Of a stretch of DNA of 64,000 nt, positions 54,156-58,477 are shown in pieces. Below the pieces are notes generated by a model that saw nothing but the letters and a program-made list of their open reading frames with translations, did no database searches and was not told where the DNA came from. The position numbers and the translations under genes were made by a program. Source of the stretch: Pseudomonadota bacterium (GTDB lineage: Bacteria; Pseudomonadota; Gammaproteobacteria; Eutrophobiales; Eutrophobiaceae). Every line of letters starts with the position of its first letter. The first letter of the stretch is position 1. The stretch covers positions 144,895-208,894 of the forward strand of contig JABFGI010000003.1 of assembly GCA_013112535.1 (NCBI GenBank), read 5' to 3'.

Positions 54156-55202
<1,047 letters not shown>

Positions 55203-55236
55203 TCCAAAGGGTAATCACTGAAAGCGGAGGTGACAC

Positions 55237-56103
55237 ATTAACACCCTGTTTCAAAGAAGTTCTTCGGTCAATGTCCGTTTTGCAGTATTTATTATTCTCT
55301 CGATTATCTTGATGGTCGTTGACCATCATCAAAGTCACTTAAAAATTATTCGATCTGCTTTATCTACACTAGTCTACCCATTGCAATATGTTGTCAATTT
55401 ACCCATTCAAGCAACGGAGTGGGTTTCAGTTTCACTAGTCACTCATAATAAATTACTGAATGAAAATGATCGTTTAAAACGCGAACATTTATTATTGAGC
55501 TCAAAATTACAACGTTTTGAAATATTGGAAAGTGAAAATCGTCGTTTACGTGAATTACTGGAGTCATCTTTTCGTCTTAATGACAAGGTGCTTGTTGCTG
55601 AATTAATCGCTGTTGAATTACAGCCGTTTCGCCGACAAATTATCATTAACAAAGGACAACGTGAGGGTGCCTATGATGGACAACCTATCGTTGATGCTGC
55701 CGGGATTATGGGACAAATCATTCACGTTACTCCGTTTTCAAGCACCGTTTTGTTAGTCACTGATCCTAATCATGCTTTGCCTGTACAGGTTAATCGTAAT
55801 GGTTTGCGTGCTATCGCTGTTGGTACAGGGCAAGAGGATAAACTGTTGCTCGAGAATCTGCCTAATAATTCCGATATACGTGTTGGTGATCTAATTATTT
55901 CATCGGGCCTTGGTCGACGTTTTCCTTCCGGTTACCCGGTTGGGCAAATTGAACAAATATCGCGAGATCCTGGCGAAGCTTTTGCGAAGGTTGTTATTAA
56001 ACCCAGTGCACAATTAAGTAAGAGCCGGGAAGTATTAATGGTTTGGCCCTATGAAAATATTGAACAGGTAGAAAATGAACCTGAAGAGATGGCGGTAAAA
56101 TGA
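55237..56103 (+). CDS. mreC: Rod shape-determining protein MreC, apparent ATT start
   Basis: From the ATT at 55237 the frame encodes 288 residues: a short basic N-terminus (NTLFQRSSSVNVR), one membrane helix (FAVFIILSIILMVV, about 15-30), then a coiled coil (about 70-110, NENDRLKREHLLLSSKLQR) and the two beta-domains of MreC. GGAGG at 55226-55230 is placed six bases before ATT, which is ideal. The first standard starts in frame, TTG 55309 and ATG 55312, fall at the end of the membrane helix and would remove it; CTG 55246 is possible but badly spaced. The family N-terminus is conserved from the ATT. It links MreB to PBP2 in the periplasm. Confidence 0.88.
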   Translation: MNTLFQRSSSVNVRFAVFIILSIILMVVDHHQSHLKIIRSALSTLVYPLQYVVNLPIQATEWVSVSLVTHNKLLNENDRLKREHLLLSSKLQRFEILESENRRLRELLESSFRLNDKVLVAELIAVELQPFRRQIIINKGQREGAYDGQPIVDAAGIMGQIIHVTPFSSTVLLVTDPNHALPVQVNRNGLRAIAVGTGQEDKLLLENLPNNSDIRVGDLIISSGLGRRFPSGYPVGQIEQISRDPGEAFAKVVIKPSAQLSKSREVLMVWPYENIEQVENEPEEMAVK

Positions 56104-56594
56104 TCCCACTTGAACAACCAAAACAAGGCAAATGGCTAATCATCGTTAGTTTTATTATCGCTATTATGCTAACTGTTCTACCTTTGCCTGATTGGGCAGT
56201 CAATTGGCGACCGGCCTGGGTAGCACTTGTTTTGATTTATTGGTGTATGGCTGTGCCGGATCGTGTTGGCCTGGCAGTAGCCTGGTTTATGGGACTTATA
56301 CTGGATGTTCAACAGGGAACTATACTTGGTCAAAATGCTTTAGGATTGGCACTAATTGCTTTTCTAACGATCAAGTCTTATCAACGTATGCGAGTTTACC
56401 CTCTTGCTCAACAGGCGGTATTGATTTGTTTTTACCTCTTGTTTTATGAATTACTCATGCTGCTAATAACAGGGTATTTAGGTACAGGTTCACGTGACTG
56501 GACTTACTGGATGCCGGCTTTTACAAGTATGTTGTTATGGCCATGGTTGTTTATTATATTGAGAGACTTACGTCGTAAGTACCATATATCCTGA
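56100..56594 (+). CDS. mreD: Rod shape-determining protein MreD
   Basis: A 164-residue inner-membrane protein with about five hydrophobic helices; the family motif AWFMGLILDVQQGTILGQNAL is clear near residue 60. It overlaps the end of mreC by four bases (ATGA). It completes the MreBCD set and lies 17 bases upstream of mrdA. Confidence 0.93.
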   Translation: MIPLEQPKQGKWLIIVSFIIAIMLTVLPLPDWAVNWRPAWVALVLIYWCMAVPDRVGLAVAWFMGLILDVQQGTILGQNALGLALIAFLTIKSYQRMRVYPLAQQAVLICFYLLFYELLMLLITGYLGTGSRDWTYWMPAFTSMLLWPWLFIILRDLRRKYHIS

Positions 56595-56611: not shown

Positions 56612-58477
56612 ATGGTTAAGGAGATTACTCTTAAAGATAGTGAACATGAAACAGGTGTCATAGCGAAACGTGTCTATTTCGCCGGTTTCGTTATTCTCTT
56701 TTTAGTCATCATTATTATCTTAAGAGTATTCTACCTGACTGTTTTGCAACATGATCATTTTACGACCTTATCTAAATCGAACAGGGTTAAGATAACACCT
56801 ATCCCACCGATCAGAGGATTAATTTACAGTCGTGAAGGTGTTGTTCTGGCAGAAAATAAACCAACGTTTAGTCTAGAAGTTATTCCAGAGCAAATTGATG
56901 ATGTTGAAAATATAATTAAACAGTTAAAAGCAATAATTAGTATTGAAGATAAGGACATCGAACGATTTAAAAAAGCATTAAAGAAACAAAGGCGGTTTGA
57001 AAATGTTGCACTACGATACAACTTAAATGAAGAAGAAGTTGCTTTATTTGCAGTTAATCGTCACCGGTTTCCCGGTGTTGACGTTGTTGCTGGTTTAAAC
57101 CGGTTTTATCCTCTGGGGGAAAAACTGGTACATACCATTGGTTATGTTGGTCGTATTGATGAAGATGATGTTAAACAACTTAATGCCTCGAATTACAGTG
57201 GTACGTCACATATCGGAAAACTGGGAATAGAAAAATCGTATGAATCATTACTTCATGGCGAAGTAGGCTATCAGCAGGTTGAAGTTAATGCTCAGGGTAG
57301 AGTTATCAGGGTTTTAAGTCGTACGCCACCCAAACCCGGGGAAAATCTTAATCTAACTATTGATTTATCATTACAACAAATTGCTATAGATGCTTTAAAA
57401 GATAAGCGCGGTGCTATTGTTGCAATGGATCCGGTTAATGGTGACATTTTAACGTTTGTCAGTTCACCAGGATATGATCCAAATAAATTTGTAAACGGTA
57501 TCGATAGCAAATCTTATAAAGCATTATTATCGTCAAAAGATAAACCCTTAATTAATCGTGTTATTCGAGGTAAGTACCCTCCAGGTTCAACAATCAAACC
57601 ATTTCTTGGGATGGTTGCACTCGATAGCGGTGTTAGGCAATTTCATGATGAGTCATGGTGTCCAGGTTGGTATTCATTAAAAGGACATGAGCATCGTTAC
57701 CGTGACTGGAAAAAGCAGGGACATGGTCATACTGATTTGCATAAAGCAATAACGCAATCATGTGATGTTTATTTCTACATCCTTGCTTATGAGTTGGGAA
57801 TTGATCGGATATTTGAAGGTCTATCTCAATTTGGCTTCGGGAAAGAAAGCGGTATTGATATCGACGGTGAAGCAAAAGGCTTGTTGCCTTCACAAGAATG
57901 GAAGCGAAAAGCATTGGGGCAAGCATGGTATCCCGGAGAAACATTGATTATGGGTATTGGTCAGGGCTATGCATTGAGTACGCCTTTGCAATTAGCCAAG
58001 GCGACTGCATCACTTGCAAATAGAGGTGATGTTGTCCGCCCACGATTAGTATCCAGTACAAGTAATTCAATTACGAGCGATATTATAACATTGCCGGTGA
58101 TTCATGAAGATAAGGTTGCTATTAATGAAAAAGATCATTGGGATAATATTATTAAGTCAATGAGAGATGTTGTGCATGGTGCAGGTGGTACTGCATGGCG
58201 TAGCGGTTTAAATACGGAATACGAGTTTGCTGGCAAAACAGGTACAGCACAGGTGATTGGTATTGCCCAGGACAAGGAATACAAGAAAGAAGAAATTGCA
58301 GAAGAGTTTCAGGATCACGCATTATTTATTGCCTTTGCTCCGGTTGAGGCACCGCGTATCGCCGTTGCCATAATTGTTGAAAATGGTGGTGGAGGATCAA
58401 AAGCAGCTGCGCCCATTGCCAGAAAAATATTTGATGAATTTATGAAAAATGAAACTGACACTGAAACCAAAGGCTAA
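56612..58477 (+). CDS. mrdA: Peptidoglycan D,D-transpeptidase MrdA (PBP2)
   Basis: A 621-residue class B penicillin-binding protein with one N-terminal membrane anchor (about 25-45), a pedestal domain and a transpeptidase domain. The active-site serine is S326 in PPGSTIKPF, the second motif is SCD in ITQSCDVYFY, and the KTGT motif is at K542 (AGKTGTAQV). It cross-links new peptidoglycan along the side wall as a partner of RodA, encoded next. The usual length is about 630. Confidence 0.97.
   Translation: MVKEITLKDSEHETGVIAKRVYFAGFVILFLVIIIILRVFYLTVLQHDHFTTLSKSNRVKITPIPPIRGLIYSREGVVLAENKPTFSLEVIPEQIDDVENIIKQLKAIISIEDKDIERFKKALKKQRRFENVALRYNLNEEEVALFAVNRHRFPGVDVVAGLNRFYPLGEKLVHTIGYVGRIDEDDVKQLNASNYSGTSHIGKLGIEKSYESLLHGEVGYQQVEVNAQGRVIRVLSRTPPKPGENLNLTIDLSLQQIAIDALKDKRGAIVAMDPVNGDILTFVSSPGYDPNKFVNGIDSKSYKALLSSKDKPLINRVIRGKYPPGSTIKPFLGMVALDSGVRQFHDESWCPGWYSLKGHEHRYRDWKKQGHGHTDLHKAITQSCDVYFYILAYELGIDRIFEGLSQFGFGKESGIDIDGEAKGLLPSQEWKRKALGQAWYPGETLIMGIGQGYALSTPLQLAKATASLANRGDVVRPRLVSSTSNSITSDIITLPVIHEDKVAINEKDHWDNIIKSMRDVVHGAGGTAWRSGLNTEYEFAGKTGTAQVIGIAQDKEYKKEEIAEEFQDHALFIAFAPVEAPRIAVAIIVENGGGGSKAAAPIARKIFDEFMKNETDTETKG

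Follow-up and report, generated by a model that had tools for sequence, protein, structure and literature searches.

The mreC gene of the window, the whole 64,000-nucleotide stretch of DNA analysed here, raises the question of where its translation begins: between an upstream in-frame TGA at 55231 and a TTG at 55309, the sequence holds no in-frame ATG, GTG or TTG. A first-pass annotation had placed the start at an ATT codon, 55237, six bases downstream of a GGAGG. Start codons of the AUU, AUC or AUA type (AUH) are best understood from infC, where initiator tRNA reads the codon and methionine is incorporated, and initiation factor IF3 discriminates against AUH codons. The pcnB gene of E. coli also starts with AUU, and to our knowledge the genes in well-studied bacteria with starts of this type can be counted on one hand. 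A reconstruction of 61,358 ancestral AUG starts found one AUG-to-AUU switch (PMC5622118). We therefore read the start region of mreC in the window, in its order and across the Gammaproteobacteria.

The start site in the window

The features of the locus are collected in Table 1. The mreC frame is open from the ATT to TAA 56101–56103, and the spacer between GGAGG and ATT (TGACAC) itself includes the in-frame TGA. As the first-pass annotation had stated, the first canonical codons are TTG 55309 and ATG 55312; these encode MreC residues 25 and 26, where the helix RFAVFIILSIILMVV is nearly finished. A mechanical open reading frame list opens the frame at this TTG, and a start at either codon loses the membrane helix. 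Only with a start at ATT 55237 does the protein have the architecture of MreC, with a short N-terminus in the cytoplasm and a single membrane helix ahead of the coiled coil. The TIGR00219 score is 218 bits from the ATT and 206 bits from TTG 55309 (curated cut-off 92.75), and PF04085 scores 147 bits against a cut-off of 28. In the alignment with E. coli MreC (PDB 7eft) residue 3 falls on residue 3, and the ATT therefore occupies the position of E. coli Met1. The genes lie in the order mreBCD-mrdA, and mreB, mreD and mrdA were also located in relatives.

Table 1. Features of the mreC locus, in window coordinates.
Feature	Position	Strand	Description
mreB	54156..55202	+	ATG start behind weak SD; stop codon 34 nt upstream of mreC start
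Shine-Dalgarno (SD) GGAGG	55226..55230	+	6 nt before ATT
TGA in mreC frame	55231..55233	+	closes frame upstream of ATT
mreC	55237..56103	+	288 codons, rod shape-determining protein MreC; NCBIfam TIGR00219, Pfam PF04085
mreC start codon ATT (probable)	55237..55239	+	ATT/ATC/ATA kept in relatives
MreC membrane helix	55276..55326	+	residues 14-30, RFAVFIILSIILMVVDH; translation, judged by eye
TTG-ATG	55309..55314	+	first canonical in-frame start codons; start for an ATG/GTG/TTG-only caller
mreD	56100..56594	+	canonical start
mrdA / PBP2	56612..58477	+	canonical start

Two other arrangements were rejected. A short upstream open reading frame, GTG ACA CAT TAA (55230–55241), runs from within the SD across the ATT, but is not kept in relatives; a fusion of the mreB and mreC frames is contradicted by the stop of mreB at 55202 in a different frame and by the TGA between the two genes. 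A conserved RNA structure at the mreC start was also rejected, the fold in the window having a z of −1.3 and no Rfam match.

Conservation of codon 1 in the order

The window's order comprises 53 genomes in one family, 52 of which have an mreC match. We fetched and scored 49 of these genes together with the two nearest relatives outside the order. The comparison of starts in close relatives, which the first-pass annotation had suggested, gave a uniform answer: codon 1 was ATT in 37 genes, ATC in 9 and ATA in 5 (51 of 51), and never ATG, GTG or TTG. The columns right after it vary freely in the order's mreC genes. A sequencing or assembly error hiding an ATG is vanishingly improbable, since some 50 independently assembled genomes of the order, and 117 genomes overall, show the same codon class.

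The relatives also bear on translation from a downstream codon (CTG 55246, TTG 55309 or ATG 55312), in which case the conserved N-terminus would not be made. Gene callers do pick such sites, as does the annotation of P. aeruginosa mreC, and an N-terminally truncated proteoform could coexist with the full-length protein. However, codon 4, the position of CTG 55246, moves freely among six leucine codons (CTG 28, TTG 6, TTA 6, CTA 4, CTC 3 and CTT 2, with one Met and one Pro), which discounts the CTG that the first-pass annotation had held open as the start. Moreover, protein-level conservation of the N-terminus and helix extends to residue 1. Starts at 55309–55312 would cost MreC most of its helix, and no strong SD stands immediately ahead of them. 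We consider initiation at any of these downstream codons very unlikely. Taken with the relatives, the sequence bears out the ATT proposed by the first-pass annotation, and mreC of the window is very probably translated from the AUU at 55237.

On an MreC tree of these genes, parsimony required at least 10 changes at codon 1 among ATT, ATC and ATA, and none to ATG. Of the third-base changes at fourfold-degenerate sites in these genes, 41% involve G; from this rate the chance of seeing no G in 10 changes is ∼0.005, by what is a rough test. Neighbouring genes served as controls. All scorable copies of mreB (47), mreD (43) and mrdA (37) at the same loci have ATG, GTG or TTG at or near the aligned start, and infC in the same genomes (L173–L201) has ATC or ATT behind GGAGG, often preceded by a stop codon and one further codon. 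The window's contig was also set against a congener, and 38 gene pairs could be compared. Of the pairs flagged, mreC was on inspection the sole real gene without a shared canonical start, the others being apparent antisense shadow frames or pairs with non-aligned starts.

AUH starts across the Gammaproteobacteria

We extended the reading to the start region of ∼120 further genomes across the class, using a simple rule-based call. Over 170 gammaproteobacterial genomes, 117 mreC starts were called AUH, 44 canonical, 2 ambiguous and 7 unresolved. AUH mreC genes were present in 63 of 111 sampled families (two of the 63 mixed), a proportion that is not a class-wide frequency because the sample is tilted toward relatives of the query and the most divergent matches were partly left out. 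The first-pass annotation had treated the ATT start as peculiar to the window's mreC and ATT starts as very rare; the former is contradicted by its spread through the class (117 of 170 genomes), and the latter is true of genes in general and false for mreC. The mreC start thus appears to be AUU, AUC or AUA in the whole order and in over half of the sampled gammaproteobacterial families, P. aeruginosa included. It reaches far wider than a single-genome reading conveys, and may have a regulatory role.

The survey also addresses whether the isoleucine codon could be internal, with translation starting at an upstream canonical or other codon. Eight of 102 AUH genes do have an upstream in-frame ATG, GTG or TTG, at distances such as 58, 10 or 3 codons. 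Against this, the remaining 94 of the 102 (from the first 130 genomes) have no such codon in the stretch from the preceding in-frame stop to the AUH codon, and the upstream codons are not conserved. In several genes the in-frame stop lies immediately or one codon before the AUH codon (L085, which reads TAA-ATT, L075, L094, L111 and L143). Together with the scarcity of upstream canonical codons, these close stops lead us to regard the AUH codon as the start and not as an internal isoleucine. The distance from SD to AUH peaks at 6 nt and is 5–9 nt in most AUH genes, and the AUH codon aligns with E. coli Met1. An upstream start is thus extremely unlikely, and in the window it is refuted by TGA 55231.

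Canonical mreC starts often share the aligned position with AUH, as in L093 (TAA-TTG-AAA), L142 (GTG) and L134 (ATG). On the MreC tree, the start switches between AUH and canonical a minimum of 20 times, 7 of these switches being forced by well-supported branches, compared with 40 for shuffled labels; E. coli and Aeromonas caviae sit among the canonical-start lineages. Since ∼40% of sampled families manage with a canonical start, AUH is not required for mreC function.

Annotation of mreC in Pseudomonas aeruginosa

The first-pass annotation had predicted that automated annotation would lose the membrane anchor, and P. aeruginosa provides an instance. The short record CP123788.1 (L283, 219–267) has the same site, reading TAG GAG CGG ATC ATC AAA CCG CTA TTC, but the annotated mreC begins at a GTG 16 codons further on, inside the membrane helix. 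Both of the tandem ATC codons are candidate starts, the second having the usual 6-nt spacing. The structure paper on P. aeruginosa MreC gives 330 residues, numbers Pro114 and Phe115, and assigns the first 14 residues to the cytoplasmic part and transmembrane region (PMC8137920). Its numbering is offset from the ATC start by exactly 16, which indicates that the published numbering follows the short version. P. aeruginosa MreC would thus be 16 residues short in CP123788.1, an error in databases that the present finding corrects, and constructs cloned from the short annotation would be missing the cytoplasmic tail and about half of the membrane helix. The mreC start is easily mis-annotated because its codon is of the isoleucine type.

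Shine-Dalgarno strength and start codon

In the order, mreC has the strongest SD of the operon, with a median predicted duplex energy of −9.5 kcal/mol compared with −2.7 for mreB, −2.9 for mreD and −2.8 for mrdA. Outside the order, the energy was −7.4 for AUH mreC and −3.9 for canonical-start mreC (p = 2.5e-6, relatedness uncorrected); once relatedness was removed, seven independent pairs gave a median p of 0.6 for SD strength against start type, which is not significant. Within one genus, two genomes differ in both elements: L164 has ATC with GAGGAGG, whereas L166 has ATG one codon upstream, without an SD. This pair looks like a natural exchange of start codon and SD. Given the strong mreC SD, a low MreC output, as in the fixed low ratio of MreC to MreB suggested by the first-pass annotation, is not to be assumed. 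Over a large part of the Gammaproteobacteria, as read from these genomes, the prevailing pattern for mreC is a strong SD leading to an AUH codon with no alternative start.

These observations could also be explained if the AUH start were real but a neutral quirk, a weak start behind a strong SD giving the same output as AUG behind a weak SD, with no IF3-linked role. Many families with AUG do function, canonical-start mreC tends toward a weak SD, and the L164/L166 pair is what such an exchange would produce. Neutrality would however predict frequent drift to ATG, and none of the 10 changes in the order went that way. Compensation could itself hinder drift, as ATG behind GGAGG may overproduce MreC, and for this reason even the neutral account implies selection on MreC level. 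We give neutrality a substantial share of the probability, somewhat below one half.

Proposed mechanism and comparison with known systems

An alternative to neutrality is that the AUH start acts through IF3. Judging from infC biochemistry, initiator tRNA would decode the AUH codon with a third-position mismatch, MreC would begin with formyl-methionine, and the strong SD would make up for the weak codon–anticodon pairing by keeping the 30S complex in place for long enough. More speculatively, since IF3 proofreads against AUH, mreC output would be responsive to IF3 and would remain a constrained share of the polycistronic mreBCD message, limiting MreC relative to MreB. In lineages that shifted to AUG (E. 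coli, Aeromonas and others) the SD is mostly weak, as if one weakness had been swapped for another and output kept. Reporters in Listeria give less protein from ATT and ATA starts than from ATG (PMC13068326). MreC self-associates (PMC8137920), which makes control of its dosage plausible. We consider it likely that mreC initiation is IF3-sensitive; physiological regulation of MreC through IF3 is a more doubtful proposition.

The infC gene, which starts with ATT in E. coli and ATC in Streptomyces (PMC5472188), is the closest parallel. Like infC, mreC has an AUU, AUC or AUA first codon without a canonical alternative, and related genomes keep it instead of drifting to AUG; in both genes the AUH codon stands behind a strong GGAGG and is widely conserved phylogenetically, and both occur in the same genomes. 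Unlike infC, which is autoregulated through IF3, mreC encodes no initiation factor, and control by IF3 would be one-way and not autoregulation. The E. coli pcnB gene resembles mreC as an AUU-start gene for a protein other than an initiation factor, mreC keeping its start over 63 families. E. coli mreC itself (b3250) is the same gene in the same operon order with Met1 at the aligned position, but it has an ATG start and no evident SD. The sigR gene of Streptomyces, which has a GTC start and demonstrated IF3 repression, is mis-annotated in public genomes (PMC5472188). It shares with mreC a non-canonical start in a gene other than infC and the public mis-annotation; it differs in codon, phylum and function, and its repression by IF3 is experimental whereas that of mreC is a prediction.

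Our search of the open-access literature found no paper linking mreC to an AUU, AUC or AUA start, and the non-AUG mreC start, conserved and almost certainly real, is apparently new to the literature. An AUH start in an essential morphogenesis gene, in 63 of 111 sampled families, would be a new case of selection on start-codon identity. It also makes mreC a candidate for connecting wall growth to IF3, its production perhaps being tied to IF3. We put forward, tentatively and as the less probable outcome, that, away from the E. coli/Aeromonas side of the tree, IF3 governs MreC synthesis in most Gammaproteobacteria through the conserved AUH codon and strong SD, the state of initiation setting the amount of linker. 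If this were true, growth rate would have a built-in coupling to cell shape through MreC, the membrane linker that switches on lateral wall synthesis, and the E. coli model lacks such a coupling.

Start regions of two other kinds were seen. In a Chromatiales metagenome-assembled genome (L048), the aligned mreC start carries GTT behind AGGAG; this may be a GUU start, akin to the GTC of Streptomyces sigR. In L284 and L249, mreC of the Legionella type begins GTG ATT TCC within the end of mreB, and GTG and ATT are both candidates.
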